Source of the DNA: Acidimicrobiia bacterium
GTDB lineage: Bacteria; Actinomycetota; Acidimicrobiia; IMCC26256; JAMXLJ01
DNA length: 46,129 nucleotides
Assembly (NCBI GenBank): GCA_024281095.1
Contig: JAMXLJ010000168.1
Span: forward strand, 1-46,129
Direction: 5' to 3'
The position numbers and the translations under genes were made by a program. The notes beneath the pieces were generated by a model. The model saw only the letters and a program-made list of their open reading frames with translations. It did not search any database and had not been told where the DNA came from. Shown piece by piece: positions 5,301-39,475 of this stretch (position 1 is its first letter; each line of letters opens with the position of its first letter).

Positions 5301-6655
5301 GCGGCACCGCCGTCCGACGCCACCCGTTGCGCCTCGGGCAAGAGGTCACCGAGGCCGGCTGATCCCGTGCCGGCGACCGGTGGCGGCGTGGCCCAGTGCT
5401 CGTCGGCCTCTTCGTAGCCCGCACCGAAATGCTCGCCGCGGCGCTCGATCGCGACGATCAGCGCCTCGACGACCCGAGGATGGAACTGACGGGCGGCATT
5501 CTTGCGCAGCTCTCCGAACGCGATTTCCTGCGTGAGCGCCCGACGATACGAACGCGTCGACGTCATGGCGTCGAATGCGTCCGCGACCGCGACGATGTGC
5601 GGCTCGATCGGCTGACCGTACTTGTCGGACACCCACGTGAAGCGCGCGTGCTCGCTCGATGCGCTCGGCGCAACCGGCGCGAGGAAATCGATGCGGCTGA
5701 GGATCTCCACCGACACGTGCTCGTGCTCCCGCACGCGGGCGAACTCCTCGGCGGTGAGCCGGCCGGGCTTGTTCAACAAGTGGTTCGGCACGATCAGCTT
5801 CCCCACGTCGTGCATCAGGGCCGCGAGACGCAGACGCTCGAGTTGCATCGGTGAGAGCCCTAACTCAGCGCCGATGTACAACGCGAACCTTGCGACGCGC
5901 TCCGCGTGCCCGGCGGTGTACGCGTCCTTCGCTTCCAGCGCGCGGATGAGAATCCGGATGGTCGCCTCGTGGGCTTCCTTCAGGTCGATGTAGCTCTTGA
6001 ACACGTGGCGAGCGATGACGATCGGGACGATGAACAACAGCACCGACGCCGGCCCGATCTGCAGGTAGAGGCGACCCATGAAGACGCCCAGCACCGCGAA
6101 CGGGTAGACGTGCAGATACGTGGGCGCGTAATCGGCGAGCACCGCGCGGGCTCCACGTCCGGTGGCCGCGGCAACCACCATCGTCAGGAACAGCGTGCCG
6201 AGGATCGAGTTTGCCGCGGCCGCGGGCAACGAGACGACGAGCAGGGTCGGCACGAAACTGCTCGACGAGTGCGGCATCGTTGCGAAGGTGACCGCTGCCG
6301 CCAGCGTGGCGAGCGACAGATTTCCGACGTTGAAGAGGACCTTGCGCCAGTCGAACGCGCGGAAGTGCTCGATCAGAACGGCGCCGCAGGCGCCGACGAG
6401 CATCGGACCGAGTAGAGAGTTCTCGGACCGGAACACCACGACGGCGGCCATGGTGATCATGAAGCTCGCACTCACACCGGTGCCCGCCAACGTGACGTCC
6501 TGGTTCGCGGCGAACGCGGACAGCGTGCCGAGCAGCACGAGGGGCACGATCGAGGGACGTGCCGAGACGCGCGCCGCGAGGACCGCGGCACCCAGGGCGG
6601 TGATTCCGATGGCGACGCACATGACGTCGATGCGATTCGGACGGCGGAGCGACAC
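5297..6655 (-). CDS. Membrane-anchored HD domain protein (HD-GYP-like)
   Basis: A 452-residue protein with seven or eight hydrophobic segments (about 12-215), a short linker helix and an HD domain. The HD residues are complete: H250 (AGHAERVARF), H282-D283 with K286 (LMHDVGKLIVP), H311/H313 and D359 (AVADAFDAMTSTRSYR). The last motif is typical of HD-GYP c-di-GMP phosphodiesterases, but the GYP loop is altered: the stretch around residues 334-350 reads SEHARFTWVSDKYGQPI. Cyclic-dinucleotide hydrolysis is therefore possible but unproven. The GTG at 6655 is chosen because a GGAAGGA lies about 12 bases upstream; the frame extends further without good starts. It lies 52 bases after a 29-residue peptide gene and overlaps the degenerate HD partner. 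Confidence 0.85.
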   Translation of the reverse strand: MSLRRPNRIDVMCVAIGITALGAAVLAARVSARPSIVPLVLLGTLSAFAANQDVTLAGTGVSASFMITMAAVVVFRSENSLLGPMLVGACGAVLIEHFRAFDWRKVLFNVGNLSLATLAAAVTFATMPHSSSSFVPTLLVVSLPAAAANSILGTLFLTMVVAAATGRGARAVLADYAPTYLHVYPFAVLGVFMGRLYLQIGPASVLLFIVPIVIARHVFKSYIDLKEAHEATIRILIRALEAKDAYTAGHAERVARFALYIGAELGLSPMQLERLRLAALMHDVGKLIVPNHLLNKPGRLTAEEFARVREHEHVSVEILSRIDFLAPVAPSASSEHARFTWVSDKYGQPIEPHIVAVADAFDAMTSTRSYRRALTQEIAFGELRKNAARQFHPRVVEALIVAIERRGEHFGAGYEEADEHWATPPPVAGTGSAGLGDLLPEAQRVASDGGAA

Positions 6656-6707
6656 CGGTTCGGCGGATCCTTCCGGGAGGAGACAGCAAGGCCCCGACGG
6701 GAGTGAA

Positions 6708-18057: not shown

Positions 18058-19453
18058 CCGTGCAGCCCGAGCCGGCCATGGGTATCACCGGCGCGGCATC
18101 CGTGTCCGTACGACGGCGTTCGCGACGGTCGCGGTCGCGGTCGCACTTGCCGCCTGCGCCGCGCTGCTCGTCGTCGAGGCCCGCCGTTCGCTGACGCGAG
18201 ACGTCACCACTGCCGCGCGGCTCCGGGCCGAAGACGTCGAGAGCCTTCTTACCGCGAGGCTCCTTCCGCTCACCCTCAAGGTTCCGAGTGACGATCGGTC
18301 GGCCGTCCAGGTCATCGACGTGACGACCGGCCAGGTCGTCACCGCTACCGACAACGTCGGAGGCGAGGCTCGTCTCTCGTCCATCGTGCCGCGCCCGGGC
18401 GGGTTCGTCGCCCGGACCGTCGCGCGCTTGCCCGTCGGCGAGGGATCGTTCCGAGTTGTCGCGCACACGGTCGAGAACCCGGCCGGGAAGTACGTCGTCT
18501 ACGCCGCCGCGAGCCTCGCGCCGGTTCGGAACAGCACCGCCACGCTGATTCGGCTCCTCCTGATCGGTCTTCCCGTGCTGCTCGTCCTCGTCGGCGTCGT
18601 CACATGGATCGTCACGGGACGCGCGCTGCAACCGGTAGAGCGCATTCGCCGTGAGGTCGCCGAGATCGGCGACCGTGAGTTGAACCGGCGCGTTCCCGAG
18701 CCGGGAACGGGCGACGAGATCGACCGCCTGTCGCGCACGATGAACGCGATGCTCGCGCGCATCGAGCAGGCGACCGCGCGACAACGCCGGTTCGTCGACG
18801 ACGCGTCGCATGAGCTGCGCAGCCCGCTCACCGCGATCCGGTCGCAGCTGGAGGTCGATCTGGCTCATCCCGACCGCGCCGATTGGAGACAGACGGAGCA
18901 CGACGTGCTCGACGAGACCGTGCGAATGCAGCGCCTGGTCGACGATCTGCTGGTCCTCGCGCAGAGCGACACCGACTCGCTTCCGACGCGTCGCGCGCCA
19001 GTCGACCTCGACGACCTCGTGCTCGACGAGGCGCGTCTTTTGCGCGAACGAGGCCGCGTCAGGGTCGATCTGACCCACGTGTCGGGGGGTCAGGTGATGG
19101 GCGATGTCGACCAACTGCGCCGGGTGCTGCGCAACCTCCTCGACAACGCCGAGCGCCATGCCGCGCACGCGGTGCGGGTCACGGTCCGTGAATACGACAG
19201 CTCGGTCGACCTCGAGGTCGCCGACGACGGCCCGGGGATCCCACCGGACCAGCGCGAGGCGGTCTTCGAACGGTTCACGCGTCTCGATCTCGCTCGCGCG
19301 CGCTCCGCCGGCGGCACGGGCCTCGGGCTCGCGATCGCGCGTGAGCTCGTGGAACACCACGGTGGCACGTTGCGACTCGCCGATCGCACCAGCGGTGCAA
19401 GCTTCGTCGTGACACTTCCGGCCGCGAACGGTGGACCGCCGTCGCACGAATGA
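18047..19453 (+). CDS. Sensor histidine kinase
   Basis: A 468-residue membrane kinase, partner of the upstream regulator. It has a first membrane helix at about residues 22-44, an extracytoplasmic loop of about 120 residues, a second helix at about 165-190, a HAMP linker (about 191-245), the H box FVDDASHELRSPLT with H255, the N box LLDNAERH, the G1 box VADDGPGIPP and G2 GGTGLGLAIARE. All catalytic boxes are intact. The start is set at ATG 18047 because it overlaps the regulator stop; the signal sensed by the loop is unknown. A hairpin terminator begins inside its stop codon. Confidence 0.92.
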   Translation: MAADRAARAGHGYHRRGIRVRTTAFATVAVAVALAACAALLVVEARRSLTRDVTTAARLRAEDVESLLTARLLPLTLKVPSDDRSAVQVIDVTTGQVVTATDNVGGEARLSSIVPRPGGFVARTVARLPVGEGSFRVVAHTVENPAGKYVVYAAASLAPVRNSTATLIRLLLIGLPVLLVLVGVVTWIVTGRALQPVERIRREVAEIGDRELNRRVPEPGTGDEIDRLSRTMNAMLARIEQATARQRRFVDDASHELRSPLTAIRSQLEVDLAHPDRADWRQTEHDVLDETVRMQRLVDDLLVLAQSDTDSLPTRRAPVDLDDLVLDEARLLRERGRVRVDLTHVSGGQVMGDVDQLRRVLRNLLDNAERHAAHAVRVTVREYDSSVDLEVADDGPGIPPDQREAVFERFTRLDLARARSAGGTGLGLAIARELVEHHGGTLRLADRTSGASFVVTLPAANGGPPSHE

Positions 19454-19476
19454 CCGGCCCAAGGGTTCGGCCGGTC
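19452..19476. terminator. Bidirectional terminator hairpin
   Basis: GACCGGCC, loop CAAGGGTTC and GGCCGGTC form a perfect 8-bp stem that includes the last bases of the kinase stop codon. It sits between the convergent histidine kinase and nucleotidyltransferase genes and marks the end of the RiPP-like operon. Confidence 0.6.
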
Positions 19477-19486
19477 GGACGTTCGT

Positions 19487-20704
19487 CTAGGAGCGGGCCG
19501 CCGAGATCATCGCGAGATACTCCTTCCGGCCGGTGCGCGAGGCGACTGCAGCCGTGCGCACGTCGAACAGTGCGGGCGGCGGCGCCCGCCGGTCGCGCCA
19601 GCCCGAGCGCCGGACCCATCTCCGGCACCGCCGCGCGACATCCTCGGCGACCGCGCGGGGACTTCCGTGCGCGGAGCGCCGAAGCATCGTCGGGACCGTT
19701 CCGTAGCCCCGAGAAGCCTCGATCGGGGACAATCGATCCACCCCGTCGATCAAGAACCGCCATCCGGCAGGGGCAAAGGAACGGTCGACTGCTTCGGGGA
19801 TGTGCGCGTCGAGCACGTGCCGCGCGGCGCGGAACATCGCAGCGGTCGCAAGGCCGGTCCTCCACTTCCGCACCGTTCGTACAACCTCGTGCCACGCGGG
19901 CGTGTCGTGTTGAGCCAACTGGGCCAGATCCTGCAGCCAGACGAGACGATTCCCGCCGTGCAGGCAGGCGTGAAGGGCGACGTACGCGGTCAAATCCTCC
20001 CGACCGAGCGCCGGCACGGGTGCACCGTCGATCGGCAGTGTGCGCGCCCGTCCGAACAGCTCGTCGATGTCGATGCGGAAACCGTCGCGCACGGGACCGA
20101 GGTTCACGAGGTGCCAGTGGAGGTCGACGACCGTGCCGAGCGGTGCCACGAGCGGAACCTCGCCGAGCCGGCGCTCCCGAGCTGACAGCCAGTCGTTGTC
20201 GAGCACCGCGAGCCCGGCCGATTCCAGCGCGCCGAGCGCGACCTCGAAATGGCGCGGCGGCACCAACACGTCGAGATCGATGTAACCCCGGAGATCCTTG
20301 CGCGCGTACACGAAGTCGCTGAGTACGGGACCCTTCAGCAGCACCCACGGGACGGACGCACGGTCGAGCAGAGTCGCGACGGTCGCGAGATCCGCGCGGC
20401 TGCGGAGCCGGTCCTGCATCATCTGGCGGTGCGCGGCGACGAGGCGGGTCGAGAGCTCGTCGTCCAGCGGGTCGCGTGCGTGGCGTACATCCAGTGCGTC
20501 GCGCCGGCGGAGCGCGAGGTACACCGGGCTCGTCACACCATGGAACTCGGACGCTCTCGCCAGCTCGACGTCGTCGACCAGTGGGGCAAGCTGCACGACG
20601 TCCTCGTCTGCCTGGCCGCCGGCACACGAGCGCACCGACGCGACGAGCAGCTTCCCGATCAGGCGACGATTGGTCCTGCGCCTCACACGAGCAGCGGCCG
20701 TCAT
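19487..20704 (-). CDS. Nucleotidyltransferase family protein (NTP_transf_5-like), RiPP tailoring candidate
   Basis: A 405-residue protein with the polymerase-beta-like nucleotidyltransferase pattern: VPWVLLKGPVLSDFVY (about 118-133) followed by GYIDLDVLVPP with the paired aspartates D143 and D145, and VVDLHWHLV downstream. This layout is that of the NTP_transf_5 group often found in lasso peptide clusters, where such proteins act together with a precursor kinase on the peptide C-terminus (known for pseudomycoidin-type clusters). It is last in the five-gene operon and overlaps the kinase-like gene by ATGA. Substrate and product here are inferred from context only. Confidence 0.82.
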   Translation of the reverse strand: MTAAARVRRRTNRRLIGKLLVASVRSCAGGQADEDVVQLAPLVDDVELARASEFHGVTSPVYLALRRRDALDVRHARDPLDDELSTRLVAAHRQMMQDRLRSRADLATVATLLDRASVPWVLLKGPVLSDFVYARKDLRGYIDLDVLVPPRHFEVALGALESAGLAVLDNDWLSARERRLGEVPLVAPLGTVVDLHWHLVNLGPVRDGFRIDIDELFGRARTLPIDGAPVPALGREDLTAYVALHACLHGGNRLVWLQDLAQLAQHDTPAWHEVVRTVRKWRTGLATAAMFRAARHVLDAHIPEAVDRSFAPAGWRFLIDGVDRLSPIEASRGYGTVPTMLRRSAHGSPRAVAEDVARRCRRWVRRSGWRDRRAPPPALFDVRTAAVASRTGRKEYLAMISAARS

Positions 20705-21696
20705 GCGACGAGGGGGCGGAGGAGCTCCACCGCCTGATCGAGGTCGCTTCCCGCGACGAGCCGGTGGGTCGGGACACACCGCGACAGCTCGGCCAGCACA
20801 CCGAGGTGCTGTCGTGACGACGCCGCGTCCGTCAGAAGGACGTTCGGCGCAAGCTCACGGATGAGCTCCGACGGCGCCAACGCCACCAGGCTGCTGTGCT
20901 CTCGTGCCGCGATGTCCGGAACGATCAATGCCACCGGGCGGCACTGCAGTTGCGGCGAGACGCCGAAGAGCTCTTCCACCCGCACCGCGTGCTTCGCACG
21001 CGCGGGCGGCATCATGGTTCTCGAGAGATACGCAAGCTCGGGAAACATGGCGACGGTGCCACGGCTCACGTCGACCTGGTCCGGCAGGCCGACGACGCGC
21101 AGCTCATCGCGCCGCCGCTGCAGGAACACGATGTCGTCGGCGAGGAATGCGAACCCCGCCTTCGTCAAGGCAAGGCTCAGCGTCGACTTTCCTGCTCCGC
21201 TCGCGCCGGCGATCAGAAGACCGGCATCGCCACGCGCGACGCACGCCGCGTGGAGCGGGTACAGGCCTCGCCGCTTTGCGAGCTCGAGCAGCGGGATGCT
21301 GAGGAAGGCGTTCATCGCGTGGGGACGGCCGGCGTGAGGCTCGAGAACCTTCACCTCGACGCGCCCGGTGCTGACGCGACAGCGCGCGCGCACGACGCCG
21401 GGGCAGTCGACAAAGAGCTCGTCGGTCGCCTCGAAGTAGTCGACAGCTCCCGCGGGGCTGCCGTAGACCTGGCGCGCGGTACCCGCAGGGCGCGCGCCGA
21501 ACGCGGGCGGGGCGTCGGAAACGAGCACGCGATACGCGATGTCGGCATCTCGGCGGAGCTCGGCACGAAGCGGGCGCAGGCGAGCGTCGATACCTGCGAG
21601 CACGCGCTCGTCGTCCGTCTCGATCTCGATGCCGAGCCGAGCCAGCTGGTACGTCGCCCGCAGCACCCGCTGGGAGATCCGGCCGGTACGGGTCAC
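20701..21696 (-). CDS. HPr kinase-like protein, RiPP tailoring candidate
   Basis: A 331-residue protein related to HPr kinase/phosphorylase. The Walker A loop GASGAGKST lies at residues 164-172, preceded by LYPLHAACVARGDAGLLIA and followed by the paired aspartates of FLADDIVFL (187-188), the usual arrangement in HprK-like precursor kinases. In lasso clusters such as paeninodin the homologue phosphorylates the C-terminal serine of the precursor. The GTG at 21696 makes a GTGA overlap with the B2 gene; the longer start at 21747 would overlap far more. Target Ser in this operon could be S23 of the 24-residue precursor, which is next to last. This is inference. Confidence 0.82.
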   Translation of the reverse strand: MTRTGRISQRVLRATYQLARLGIEIETDDERVLAGIDARLRPLRAELRRDADIAYRVLVSDAPPAFGARPAGTARQVYGSPAGAVDYFEATDELFVDCPGVVRARCRVSTGRVEVKVLEPHAGRPHAMNAFLSIPLLELAKRRGLYPLHAACVARGDAGLLIAGASGAGKSTLSLALTKAGFAFLADDIVFLQRRRDELRVVGLPDQVDVSRGTVAMFPELAYLSRTMMPPARAKHAVRVEELFGVSPQLQCRPVALIVPDIAAREHSSLVALAPSELIRELAPNVLLTDAASSRQHLGVLAELSRCVPTHRLVAGSDLDQAVELLRPLVA

Positions 21697-22199
21697 GTCT
21701 CGACGCCGCAGCGCGAGATGCGTGCGACCTCCCTGAAGCGTGCGCACGGGTCACTGCGCTCGAACGCGGGCCGACCGTCCACGGCAATCCAACAATGTCC
21801 GACGGTCGACGTGCCCGACGTGTCGACACCGAAGCACAAGGCGACGTCGACCCCGAGCCGGCGAAGCCCGTAGTAGAGCGCGATGCCGCGTCGTGTGCAG
21901 CTCGGTCGAACCAACGGCGCCCCGTGCCGGAGTACGGCATCCACCCACCGCTCCAGCCTTTCGACACGAACATGGATGGACGGCGCGGCCGGGTGCCGGC
22001 GCCCGCGCTTCGTCTCGGGAGCCGGCTCGAGAAGCCGCTGGACCCGGCCCAGATCGAAACGAAGGATCGCGGGTGCGAGCGTGGCGATGAGTGCGCATCG
22101 CGCGAGCAACGTGATGTCGCGCGGCCCCGGCCGGGACTGCGAATTGCTACGCGTCGAGAAGATGGTCTCTCGCAAGCGCGCGGACGAGGTCGACGACAT
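21693..22199 (-). CDS. Lasso peptide biosynthesis B2-type leader peptidase (transglutaminase-like)
   Basis: A B2 protein of the transglutaminase-like cysteine protease fold, which removes the leader peptide in lasso biosynthesis. The triad can be placed: Cys101 in RPSCTRRGIALYYGLRRLG, His135 in VGHCWIAVDG and Asp141. The N-terminal segment RPGPRDITLLARCALIATL is also typical. The start is uncertain: ATG at 22199 gives 168 residues but overlaps the PqqD-like gene by 53 bases, while a TTG at 22109 gives about 138 residues, close to the family norm. There is no ATG or GTG in frame between them. It overlaps the kinase-like gene by 4 bases. Confidence 0.88.
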   Translation of the reverse strand: MSSTSSARLRETIFSTRSNSQSRPGPRDITLLARCALIATLAPAILRFDLGRVQRLLEPAPETKRGRRHPAAPSIHVRVERLERWVDAVLRHGAPLVRPSCTRRGIALYYGLRRLGVDVALCFGVDTSGTSTVGHCWIAVDGRPAFERSDPCARFREVARISRCGVET

Positions 22200-22455
22200 C
22201 CGCTTCGACCGTAGAGCGGGGAGCGTCGTACTCGTCGCACAGCAGGGTGACGATGTCCGCAACGTCGTGCGTTCCGTCACACAGCTCCCACACCCGCGTT
22301 CCGACTTCGTTCAACGAGAAGTAGTGCCCGCCGTCGAGCGCGAGCAAGATGGTTTCCTCTTCCGTCCGCTCAGCGAGGACACGAGAGCTTCGCTTCGGAG
22401 CGGTGTCGACCGCGACGTCTTCGACGGGCCTGCCCCCCGGCCCGCGGCGTGCCAT
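22147..22455 (-). CDS. PqqD family RiPP recognition protein (lasso B1-like)
   Basis: A 102-residue PqqD-fold protein (RiPP recognition element), which binds the leader peptide and presents the precursor to its enzymes. Typical features are ILLALDGGHYFSLNEVGTRVWELCDG (about 37-62; the strand pair that holds the leader is GGHYFSLNEVG), then VADIVTLLCDEYDA and VEADVVDLVRALARDHLL. The N-terminal 30 residues are basic and variable. Its ATG shares one base with the precursor stop codon (TGATG), so the two are translated together. Together with the B2 protein it makes a split B1/B2 pair as in actinobacterial lasso clusters. Confidence 0.9.
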   Translation of the reverse strand: MARRGPGGRPVEDVAVDTAPKRSSRVLAERTEEETILLALDGGHYFSLNEVGTRVWELCDGTHDVADIVTLLCDEYDAPRSTVEADVVDLVRALARDHLLDA

Positions 22456-22529
22456 CAGAACGAAAAGCGAGTGAGCTTCCGGAGCAGTCCCAGGTCGGTC
22501 AAGGTCGGCTTCTTGTACGGCCGCTTCAT
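22455..22529 (-). CDS. Lasso-type leader peptide with minimal core (24 residues)
   Basis: A short ORF, ATG at 22529, preceded by a strong ribosome site (GAGGAGGGCGGACC). The product matches the lasso leader motif Y-x2-P-x-L-x3-G-x5-T exactly: Y5, P8, L10, G14 and T20. In known lasso precursors this Thr is position -2, so cleavage would fall after R21, leaving only F22-S23-F24. A normal lasso core has about 14-25 residues starting with Gly, Ala or Ser, so the core is missing or tiny. S23 would be available for the kinase-like protein. No frameshift that restores a plausible core was found (the +1 frame reads through Arg-rich sequence). The next gene (PqqD-like) begins at the stop codon. Confidence 0.8.
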   Translation of the reverse strand: MKRPYKKPTLTDLGLLRKLTRFSF

Positions 22530-22632: not shown

Positions 22633-22905
22633 TCACCTCTGGGCGCGCCGGAACGCGTCCCGGATCAGTGCATAGAGGCGGTCCAGCGGGTCGTATGTCG
22701 GCCAGGTGCCGGGAATCAGCAGGTGAACGAGCACATACCCGAACACGGCGAATAGGAGCCACCGGCCCAGCGGATGGGTGCCTGCGTTGCGGGTCCAGGC
22801 CGTGATGGTCTCGCCCTTCGCCCAGATGGCTCCGATATCCCAGCCGACCATCACGGCAATGACGAGCACCCAGCCGTGCCAGCCATGAGCGAAGAGCTGC
22901 CTCAT
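22633..22905 (-). CDS. Small two-helix membrane protein
   Basis: A 90-residue protein with two hydrophobic helices (GWVLVIAVMVGWDIGAIWA and GRWLLFAVFGYVLVHLLIP), Trp-rich, with a charged C-terminus (YALIRDAFRRAQR). The ATG is preceded by GGAGGACGTCGG. The pattern HPLGRW between the helices is seen in phage and actinobacterial small proteins that I cannot name. It lies 103 bases upstream of the RiPP-like precursor on the same strand. A link to that operon (for example immunity or export) is possible but not shown. Confidence 0.65.
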   Translation of the reverse strand: MRQLFAHGWHGWVLVIAVMVGWDIGAIWAKGETITAWTRNAGTHPLGRWLLFAVFGYVLVHLLIPGTWPTYDPLDRLYALIRDAFRRAQR

Positions 22906-37039: not shown

Positions 37040-37357
37040 ATGCAGGCAGGGGACATTGACGTTTTCGACGGTTTCGCGGCGCCGGCCATTCCGACCGTGA
37101 CTGGCGCAGCGTCGCTCACACCCCGCGAAGGAGTGATCGCCGAGCTCGTTGCTCGCGGAGCGACCAACAAGCAGGCTGCCCAGATACTGTCGGTGAGCCC
37201 GAAGACCGTCGAGTTCCACCTCAGCAAGGTCTTTCGGAAGCTCGGAGTGGCATCCCGCTCCCAGTTGGCGTGGCTCATCGCTCGCGCCCACCGCGACAGG
37301 TCCGACGGCAGCGTGGAATCGGCGCGGGCGAACATGTCGCACGGCGGAATGTCGTGA
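37040..37357 (+). CDS. Stand-alone LuxR-type HTH regulator
   Basis: A 105-residue protein with a LuxR/GerE HTH at residues 26-82 (LTPREGVIAELVARGATNKQ, then AAQILSVSPKTVEFHLSKVFRKLGV) and a short acidic N-terminus. It has no sensor domain. It shares most HTH residues with the protein at 32730, including LVARGATNK and KTVEFHLS, so the two are paralogues. ATG preceded by GGAAGGGG. Its stop overlaps the permease GTG (GTGA), so it is co-translated with the transporter and patatin genes. Confidence 0.88.
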   Translation: MQAGDIDVFDGFAAPAIPTVTGAASLTPREGVIAELVARGATNKQAAQILSVSPKTVEFHLSKVFRKLGVASRSQLAWLIARAHRDRSDGSVESARANMSHGGMS

Positions 37358-38403
37358 CACTTCTGAGCGCACTGCGAGACTTGCAGTGGCGGCGTCGCCG
37401 GGTTTTGATCGCTGCGATCGGGACTGCCCTCGTCTTCGCTCTCACGCTCGTGCTCTCCGGCGTGTCGCACGGATTCGACGTCGAGACCAGTCGCACGATG
37501 TCGAAGTTCCACGCCGATGGTTGGGTGATCAGCAGCGGAGCGTCAGGACCGTTCGTCGGCCAGTCGCCCCTGCTCGCCTCGAACATCGATGCAGTCCGCC
37601 GCCAACCAGGAGTTCACGAGGCAAACGGGTTCATTTTCTCGCGAAAGACCGTCGGCGTCGCGGCGGACAAGGAAGTGAACCTCTTTGGCGTGGGAAGCCG
37701 TGGTGTTGCAGTGCCCTCCGTGGACAATGGCCGGGGGCCGAGGAGAAGCGGCGAGGCGACGGTGAGCACCCGTCTCCACTACGGCATCGGCGACAAATTC
37801 TTCCTGTCGGGGCGCGAGTTCGTCGTCGTGGGGACCATCGGCAACTGGACGGCAGTAGCGGGTGTTCCCAACGTGTTCGTCGGCCTTGCCGACGCGCAGA
37901 AGATCGCGTTCGTCGGACAACCCATCGTCTCGGCGGTCGCAGTGAAGGGGACGCCCACGAACGTGCCCGCCGGCACGACGTTCATGTCGAACTCGGTGGC
38001 ACGTAAGGATCTCCTGCGATCGGTGAAGAACGCGCGGTCCGGCATCGACCTCGTGGGGCTCCTGCTCTGGGTCGTGGCCGCGACGATCATCGGATCGGTC
38101 ATCTACCTTTCCGCACTGGAGCGCGTCCACGACTTCGCCGTCTTCAAAGCGACCGGAACTTCCAGCGCGACGATTCTCGTCGACCTGATCATTCAGGCCG
38201 TGATCCTCGCTCTTCTCGCGGCGGCGATCGGCGCGGGCCTCGCAGTCTTGATCGGGCCCCGGTTTCCAATTCCCGTCGTGATACCGATGAGCGCGTTCGT
38301 GTTGTTGCCACTTCTCGCCATAGCCGTCGGCCTCGTGGCGAGCCTGGCCGGGCTGCGTCGCGCGATCACTGTCGATCCAGCCGTGGCGTTCACGACCGCG
38401 TGA
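37354..38403 (+). CDS. FtsX/MacB-like ABC transporter permease
   Basis: A 349-residue permease of the MacB/LolC type: one N-terminal helix (residues about 17-40), a large extracytoplasmic domain (40-235) and three C-terminal helices (about 236-262, 275-310, 318-345). The segment ALERVHDFAVFKATGTSSATI is the usual coupling region before the second helix. It begins with GTG overlapping the LuxR stop. The partner ATPase follows 22 bases after its stop. Such transporters move lipids or lipoproteins to or through the membrane, which suits a lipid-producing operon. No separate second permease is seen, so it may work as a homodimer. Confidence 0.88.
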   Translation: MTLLSALRDLQWRRRRVLIAAIGTALVFALTLVLSGVSHGFDVETSRTMSKFHADGWVISSGASGPFVGQSPLLASNIDAVRRQPGVHEANGFIFSRKTVGVAADKEVNLFGVGSRGVAVPSVDNGRGPRRSGEATVSTRLHYGIGDKFFLSGREFVVVGTIGNWTAVAGVPNVFVGLADAQKIAFVGQPIVSAVAVKGTPTNVPAGTTFMSNSVARKDLLRSVKNARSGIDLVGLLLWVVAATIIGSVIYLSALERVHDFAVFKATGTSSATILVDLIIQAVILALLAAAIGAGLAVLIGPRFPIPVVIPMSAFVLLPLLAIAVGLVASLAGLRRAITVDPAVAFTTA

Positions 38404-38425
38404 GGCTCCACCCACAGGAGAAGCG

Positions 38426-39475
38426 ATGGAACTGAGCATCCGCGACCTGACCATCGAGTATTCGAGCGGTGGCTACGTCGTGCGACCCGTCGACGGGCTC
38501 GATCTCACCGCGTCCACGGGCTCGCTCGTGTTGCTCCTCGGACCGAGCGGATGTGGCAAGACATCACTGCTGTCCTGCCTCGGGGGGATCCTGACGCCGA
38601 AGCACGGAAGCATCCGGTTCGGCGACGTCAACATTGCCGGGCTCAGTGGCCCGTCGCTCACAACCTTTCGTCGTCAGACCGTGGGGATCGTCTTCCAGGC
38701 GTTCAACCTCGTGCCGAGCATGACCGCGCTCGAGAACGTGATGGTGCCGCTCTGCAACGGAGGCATGCGGCGGCGGCTCGCGCGGAGTCGCGCCAACCAG
38801 CTCCTCTCCGACGTGGGGCTCGCAGATCGCACCAGCCACCGTCCCGGCGACATGTCCGGCGGCCAACAACAGCGCGTCGCGATCGCGCGCGCCCTGGCCT
38901 TCGACCCTCCGCTGTTGCTCGCCGACGAGCCGACGGCTCACCTCGACTACATCCAGGTGGAGGGTGTGCTGAAGCTGATACGGCAGCTCGCCGACGGTGA
39001 CCGCCTCGTCATCATCGCGACGCACGATCACCGGCTGCTGCCGATCGCGGACCGCGTGGTCGAGCTGGTTCCGGAAGTCGGCCACACCGCGCGGCCTCCT
39101 GAACGTGTACTCCTCGACACCGGCGATGTTCTGTTCCGGCAGGGCGATTGGGGCGACCTCGTCTACGTGATCGAAGACGGCGAGATGGAGATGGTGGCGG
39201 AGCTCGAGGGTGGCCGCGAGGAGGTCCGCAGCGTCCTGGGGCCGGGCGGATACTTCGGCGAGGTCGGTCCGGTGTTCGCTTTGCCCCGGTCCGCCACGGC
39301 GCGGGCAAGCCGGCCGAGCATCGTGCTCGGCTACACCACGCGTGAGTTCCGGGACCGTGTCGGGCCGATACCGGTGGAACGCGTCGGAACCGGTCTGCCC
39401 GAGGTCGTGCCGGCAGTGTCGGGTACTGCGCACAGACAGGCTGCGGTCGACACTGCGTCCTCCAGCGCGCCATGA
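38426..39475 (+). CDS. ABC transporter ATPase fused to a cyclic-nucleotide-binding domain
   Basis: A 349-residue fusion. Residues 1-220 are a MacB/LolD-type ATPase: Walker A GPSGCGKT (39-46), signature MSGGQQQRVAIARAL (143-157), Walker B LLLADEP (163-169) and H-loop ATHDH. Residues about 228-305 form a CRP-type cNMP-binding domain, with the phosphate-binding cassette FGEV...PRSATARA (G278-E279, R288). The last 45 residues are not conserved. The cNMP domain suggests that transport is gated by cAMP or a related nucleotide. The gene overlaps the patatin gene by ATGA. I know of no characterised transporter with this order. Confidence 0.88.
   Translation: MELSIRDLTIEYSSGGYVVRPVDGLDLTASTGSLVLLLGPSGCGKTSLLSCLGGILTPKHGSIRFGDVNIAGLSGPSLTTFRRQTVGIVFQAFNLVPSMTALENVMVPLCNGGMRRRLARSRANQLLSDVGLADRTSHRPGDMSGGQQQRVAIARALAFDPPLLLADEPTAHLDYIQVEGVLKLIRQLADGDRLVIIATHDHRLLPIADRVVELVPEVGHTARPPERVLLDTGDVLFRQGDWGDLVYVIEDGEMEMVAELEGGREEVRSVLGPGGYFGEVGPVFALPRSATARASRPSIVLGYTTREFRDRVGPIPVERVGTGLPEVVPAVSGTAHRQAAVDTASSSAP

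Follow-up and report, generated by a model that had tools for sequence, protein, structure and literature searches.

A cyclase-free, lasso-like operon with an apparently nearly core-less precursor suggests a ring-free peptide pathway in Actinomycetota

Introduction

Ring-free, kinase-modified relatives of lasso peptides are already established by the Linear Polyphosphorylated Peptides (LPP) of Bacillota, whose lppAKBSDN clusters combine a recognition element (RRE) for ribosomally synthesized and post-translationally modified peptides (RiPPs), a kinase and a nucleoside triphosphate (NTP) transferase with no cyclase (Nat Commun 2026, PMC13381572). LPP is the nearest known family to the system described here, a single operon at 22529-19487 on the reverse strand of a 46,129-nucleotide stretch of DNA (hereafter the window; contig JAMXLJ010000168.1, positions 1 to 46,129, assembly GCA_024281095.1) from an Acidimicrobiia bacterium of the order IMCC26256. 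The operon encodes a short precursor, a PqqD-like adapter (B1), a B2 peptidase, an HprK-like kinase and a nucleotidyltransferase, and we read it, with moderate confidence, as a ring-free, lasso-derived RiPP pathway.

Lasso peptides are likewise tailored by kinases and nucleotidyltransferases (PMC8498205). The phosphorylated ones (paeninodin, pseudomycoidin and Bsf) share B1, B2 and the HprK-like kinase with the window set, as pseudomycoidin does the nucleotidyltransferase, but differ from it in having a cyclase, a ring acceptor and a core of ring length. In Bsf, the kinase BsfK phosphorylates Ser3 and B1 speeds the reaction (PMC10368454), and in LPP, LppK phosphorylates a Ser3 that lies three residues past a conserved Thr, with cleavage after that Thr (PMC13381572). 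Cyclase-free settings are already known in bulk but have not been dissected: of the RREs that RRE-Finder's discrete lasso model detected, roughly half do not co-occur with a peptidase and a cyclase (PMC7470986). No paper describing the arrangement in the window was found in the literature searched, which had most subscription journals outside its reach.

The window set and LPP have in common a discrete RRE, an HprK-like kinase, an NTP transferase, a lasso-like YxxP leader, the absence of a cyclase and a hydroxyl residue, the acceptor in LPP, three residues past a conserved Thr (LPP motif ...ETxxS). They differ in the leader peptidase, which in LPP is the signal peptidase I (SpI)-like, SipW-type LppS and in the window a lasso B2 protease; no SpI-like peptidase is among the five operon genes, the rest of the genome not having been searched for one. 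LPP clusters also carry an MsbA-like exporter, whereas the operon has none, and the initial annotation of the window was right to note this absence: the 20 further open reading frames scanned include no dedicated exporter near the operon, their sole transporter being an FtsX/ABC pair at a distance of some 15 kb. LPP is moreover described as restricted to Bacillota, and the window set belongs to Actinomycetota. Within the LPP motif YxxPxVLxHQxIxFETxxS, the window precursor fits Y1, P4, the aliphatic positions 6 and 12, T16 and S19 but not HQ (9-10) or FE. We do not file the set as a member of LPP, though it appears to work like one.

Results and discussion

A lasso-like gene set in a genome without a lasso cyclase

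The initial annotation, made from the window's letters alone, had described five overlapping or touching genes in which the asparagine-synthetase-like macrolactam cyclase of lasso clusters was missing. All five genes were located (Table 1), with family matches for the four enzymes, and the absence of the cyclase extends from the window to the whole 4.39-Mb genome (97.98% complete). A genome-wide PF00733 search, of the kind the initial annotation had suggested for an orphan cyclase, returned no lasso cyclase and only two matches at about 21 bits, identified from their known motifs as MnmA (tRNA 2-thiouridylase, L001) and NadE (glutamine-type NAD synthetase, L002). The genome therefore lacks lasso cyclase and asparagine synthetase alike, and an orphan cyclase elsewhere in it is ruled out by this search. 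A true lasso cluster in a genome of the same order (G014), with B1, B2, cyclase, nucleotidyltransferase and a precursor (...EDITL/ANNFASQSDGVFVQTPQGLASLGS) that has Asp as its ninth core residue, served as a control; its cyclase was detected, and the method therefore sees a cyclase where one is present.

The discrete RRE protein B1 and the B2 leader peptidase of lasso clusters are both present in the operon. When the B1 profile was compared with solved structures, its nearest relative was TbiB1 (5v1u, 5.3e-20). B2, the only copy in the genome, scores 49.5 bits against NF033537 lasso_biosyn_B2 (cut-off 33) and 2.1e-13 against PF13471, and alignments show a conserved Cys in RPxC, His in GHCW and one Asp. 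The kinase exceeds the PF07475 cut-off of 33.3 bits, carries the P-loop GASGAGKST and the conserved LHAAC and LADD motifs, and its profile matches HprK in the Protein Data Bank (1jb1, 4.5e-6). The nucleotidyltransferase keeps YxDLD...DLHW, with D142, D144 and D193 invariant in the alignment. Neither B2 nor the nucleotidyltransferase had a relative in the solved-structure search.

Recurrence of the set in other genera

A survey for sets of this kind, also proposed in the initial annotation, found that four further genera (genomes G046, G375, G913 and G917) also carry B1, B2, kinase and nucleotidyltransferase with no cyclase next to them. G046, an Actinomycetes metagenome-assembled genome (MAG) of the same order but another family, holds all four enzymes clustered in mixed orientation on contig JAODBJ010000034.1 with two precursors (MKRPYRKPQVRRLGLLRKLTRFSF and MTKRPYVKPALKQLGLLRKLTRFSVV), while G375, from another order, has the window's own gene order, precursor-B1-B2-kinase-nucleotidyltransferase, with precursor MKDKRTYEKPELQRLGLLRDLTK/STQSFTPPRWGLPS. 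In G913 and G917 the order is B1-B2-kinase with the nucleotidyltransferase close by; G917 has three precursors ending LTRYTF and G913 has one, ending LTQFSF, on another contig. The absence of a cyclase is firm for the window genome and G375 only, the PF00733 matches of the latter being QueC, GuaA and MnmA. In G913 and G917, those PF00733 proteins that were checked begin [MV]CGIAG and exceed the asparagine synthase cut-off, and G046 has two asparagine-synthase-related proteins on a contig separate from the set.

The set is rare within the genomes sampled, which were partial samples with several relatives being MAGs of 85-94% completeness. Kinase matches at E<1e-70 occur only in G375, G913 and G917 among 298 sampled genomes of the order that includes these three, and precursor matches at E<=0.001 only in G913 and G917 among 397, that is, in two of the three genomes with such a kinase. 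Because precursor homologues recur in genomes holding the same enzymes, the operon is not a chance assembly. Two of 58 genomes in the window's own order have a close kinase (the window genome and G046), and the set is absent from G001, the only congener searched. A contig scan with a two-sequence kinase profile and only two narrow peptide patterns yielded, besides the G046 record, a single distant betaproteobacterial match. In the B1 and B2 trees the five sets group with weak support, and we do not claim a single origin; the B2 row of G090, read in a wrong frame, is disregarded.

A precursor with almost no core

The precursor, MKRPYKKPTLTDLGLLRKLTRFSF, is preceded by a ribosome (Shine-Dalgarno) site, GAGGAGGGCGG, just upstream of its ATG. 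It falls below the cut-offs of the lasso leader models NF033521 lasso_leader_L3 (16.4 bits, cut-off 19) and PF19397 (14.2 bits), and yet its residues Y5, P8, L10 and T20 fall on Y-17, P-14, L-12 and T-2 of the register in which lasso leaders conserve Tyr, Pro, Leu and Thr, the first three being also those of Bsf (PMC10368454); paeninodin has Trp in place of the leader Tyr. Because this match is exact, with G14 also inside the leader, the core comprises F22-S23-F24 only. Homologues with the same build, which we call mini-precursors, number seven in four genera (those of the window, G046, G913 and G917) and are 24-30 residues long, as against 35-200 residues in LPP with a long core (45 residues in LppA). 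All seven keep L-G-L-L-R-x-L-T-[RQ]-[FY]-[ST] and then end within one or two residues, giving C-termini of LT[RQ][FY][ST]F or LTRFSVV and, by the lasso register, cores of FSF, YTF or FSVV. None of these cores contains the Asp or Glu at position 7-9 with following tail that a lasso core has: the window's FSF lacks either acidic residue and is too short for a ring, and the same holds for the other six.

An ordinary lasso pathway with its cyclase encoded elsewhere would account for an operon whose remaining genes are those of phosphorylated lasso clusters (PMC8498205), and the two asparagine-synthase-related proteins of G046 could be taken in its favour. We regard it as hardly credible, since the window genome and G375 have no cyclase, the proteins checked in G913 and G917 pass as asparagine synthases, and a three-residue core without Asp or Glu makes a macrolactam of 7-9 residues impossible. 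For the window genome (98% complete) this explanation is refuted, and a cyclase hidden in a gap would still face no ring acceptor.

The missing cyclase and truncated look of the precursor, together with the lack of the set in the sister genome G001, could also suggest a lasso cluster in decay, with its cyclase and most of the core already gone. The codons argue otherwise. Between the window precursor and copy a of G046, 20 compared codons hold 12 synonymous and 5 non-synonymous changes, all 5 of the latter at variable leader positions, whereas the last 12 codons comprise 11 synonymous changes, one identical codon and no non-synonymous change. Because changes in the C-terminal block are synonymous only, the precursor, including its C-terminus, is under purifying selection rather than decaying. 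The same state is found in four genera, precursor copies have multiplied (two in G046, three in G917), and the enzyme motifs are all intact at cross-genus identities of about 38-46% for the kinase and 28-36% for the nucleotidyltransferase, so that the decay of these two genes, which the initial annotation had named as a sign against its proposal, is not seen across the other genera even though the congener lacks the set. Decay, very improbable in our estimate, is ruled out by the codon pattern and this conservation. In the lasso register the precursor is nearly all leader, and its conserved end, roughly three residues long (Phe-Ser-Phe), is probably what the kinase and nucleotidyltransferase decorate; the near-absence of a core is a stronger point than those of the initial annotation, which did not raise it.

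The conserved block LGLLRxLTRFSF covers leader and core alike, as would be expected if the functional form were the whole leader-like peptide, modified or not (serving, for instance, as tag, linker or partner of cell-surface proteins), with B1, B2 and the kinase acting on it in place. Extra precursor copies do lie beside a secreted choice-of-anchor L protein in G046 (L034:3685-5457; locus L034:3164-5457) and beside a choice-of-anchor C-like protein, under its model's cut-off, in G917 (L111:1453-3009; locus L111:1310-3009), and in genomes of family f80 most peptides come after a secreted protein. B2 retains its Cys, His and Asp in every set, which favours cleavage, no secreted protein adjoins the window operon, and neighbour distances vary, so we hold this explanation to be unlikely but worth keeping in view. 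As an observation in its own right, the placement of mini-precursors beside choice-of-anchor proteins in G046 and G917 hints at a cell-surface link.

A proposed pathway

We favour a ring-free pathway in which the YxxPxL leader would be bound by B1, after which the kinase, assisted by B1, would phosphorylate S23 (Thr in G917). B2 would then cut after R21, one residue beyond T-2, to release a tri- or tetrapeptide (FSF, YTF or FSVV), or directly after the Thr as in LPP, to release RFSF, and the nucleotidyltransferase might add a further group, perhaps nucleotidyl or sugar, to the phosphate; no ring would form. This order of phosphorylation, cleavage and decoration seems the most likely because S23 lies at T20 + 3 (T-x-x-S), as does the LPP site, and because the Bsf and LPP kinases provide precedent. 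This spacing and its nearness to the Ser3 site of Bsf make S23, which the initial annotation chose as a fitting target next to the C-terminus, a well-placed candidate for the kinase, although G917 has Thr there. The broader proposal of a ring-free RiPP pathway finds support in the absence of a cyclase and of a core to close, but such a pathway has a published precedent in LPP (PMC13381572). More tentatively, the mature product may be no more than the three or four conserved residues ([FY]-[ST]-F), first phosphorylated and later nucleotidylated or glycosylated, possibly as a small conserved signal, cofactor-like molecule or surface linker and not a variable antibiotic.

Several points weigh against this pathway. 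The window's Ser is penultimate, whereas that of paeninodin is C-terminal; the S3T variant of LPP was not phosphorylated, while G917 has Thr, and the LPP study detected no activity of LppN (PMC13381572). The core in G375 is longer (14 residues), several relatives are incomplete MAGs, and the operon is rare and missing from the sole congener searched.

The kinase and nucleotidyltransferase could instead act on another substrate, such as a surface glycan or protein, and be merely co-operonic with the peptide genes. HprK-like kinase, PqqD-like and NTP-transferase genes are grouped in G042 and G055, where no B2 or lasso-like precursor was found, and the LPP and paeninodin loci are located among polysaccharide genes. 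The genes overlap in a single operon, however, the same set occurs in five genera, and the kinases that have been tested (the paeninodin kinase, BsfK and LppK) act on the precursor peptide, which leaves this explanation rather improbable.

The ring-free pathway that we prefer also resembles other systems in part. Pyrroloquinoline quinone (PQQ) and mycofactocin are cofactors derived from a short precursor segment by systems with a PqqD-type RRE and radical S-adenosylmethionine (SAM) chemistry. The window set shares the PqqD-type adapter and, putatively, a product drawn from few precursor residues, and differs in having a kinase and nucleotidyltransferase where those have radical SAM enzymes. 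The HprK_rel_A and HprK_rel_B families share an HprK-related kinase beside a PqqD-like protein, from which the B2 peptidase and lasso-like precursor set the window apart; membership of the kinase itself was rejected (TIGR04352 and TIGR04355, 39.5 and 57.6 bits against cut-offs of 200).

Operon layout and neighbouring features

Table 1. Positions in the window of the operon genes and of nearby features.
Feature	Position	Strand	Remarks
Precursor peptide, 24 aa	22455..22529	-	ATG 22529, stop 22457-22455
B1, PqqD-like RRE (leader-binding adapter), 102 aa	22147..22455	-	PF05402 1.2e-22
B2 leader peptidase, transglutaminase-fold Cys protease	about 21693..22199	-	NF033537, PF13471
HprK-like kinase, 331 aa	20701..21696	-	PF07475 35.7 bits
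Nucleotidyltransferase (NTP_transf_5), 405 aa	19487..20704	-	PF14907 9.3e-36
GC-rich hairpin past the operon, possible terminator	19453..19475	-	8-bp GC stem, no U-tract
DUF7427 small protein	22633-22905	-	immediately upstream of the operon
FtsX/ABC pair	37270-39475		sole transporter among 20 further reading frames

The genes are tightly joined: a TGATG overlaps the precursor stop with the B1 start, the start region of B2 overlaps B1 (its start codon is uncertain, ATG 22199 being likely), and GTGA and ATGA overlaps link B2 to the kinase and the kinase to the nucleotidyltransferase. The hairpin that had been described as the terminator closing the operon does fold (51 nt, -22.2 kcal/mol, z -2.5), but its role as a terminator is only plausible, and weaker than claimed, as it has no U-tract and a terminator scan made no call there. 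A DUF7427 small protein gene lies close upstream of the operon on the same strand.

Other cyclase-free arrangements

Peptides of another lasso-like family, for example MAQKSQREPYAKPALVKHENLKEITFECANWQCSVVVPQQP, lie without an adjacent cyclase in the f80 genomes G652, G613 and G718 (L100:4118-8275, L102:2469-8900, L106:4172). Each locus holds two or three of these peptides, most of them right after a large secreted-protein gene and near a second HprK-like kinase, and their leader has His at LPP position 9. In further f80 loci (L101:3137-5755, L103:6757-9119, L099:6550-8906), a gene for a large membrane protein (DUF2079 in L101) comes after kinase-B1-B2 and glycosyltransferase-like genes are in the vicinity, and G457, of the same family, gives weak PF00733 matches only, hence no asparagine synthetase or cyclase candidate. 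In G090 (L072:6826-10303), B1 and B2 are accompanied by a pair of HprK-like kinases and three precursors (MSYEAP..RSLGSVAE.T...), and no protein in the genome passes the PF00733 cut-off. In G087 (L071:4842 and 5315-6700), kinase, B2 and B1-like genes have a lasso-like peptide, MGGCKVKYETPQIKDFGSIAEHTFMPGDCKPRLLTFQQYDGCHHS, close by, with no cyclase seen in the locus.

Conclusions

The surprising part of this system is its conserved, nearly core-less precursor, which points to a fixed small product. Ring-free, kinase-tailored RiPPs would with it extend from Bacillota to Actinomycetota, and the use of a lasso B2 protease as replacement peptidase suggests that lasso parts and cyclase-free chemistry are combined with more freedom than one would gather from the published families. 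As it comprises a precursor that can be synthesized as a 24-residue peptide and four small enzymes, the pathway is directly testable in full, and it may become a simple model for the work that the HprK-like kinase and nucleotidyltransferase do in lasso clusters.

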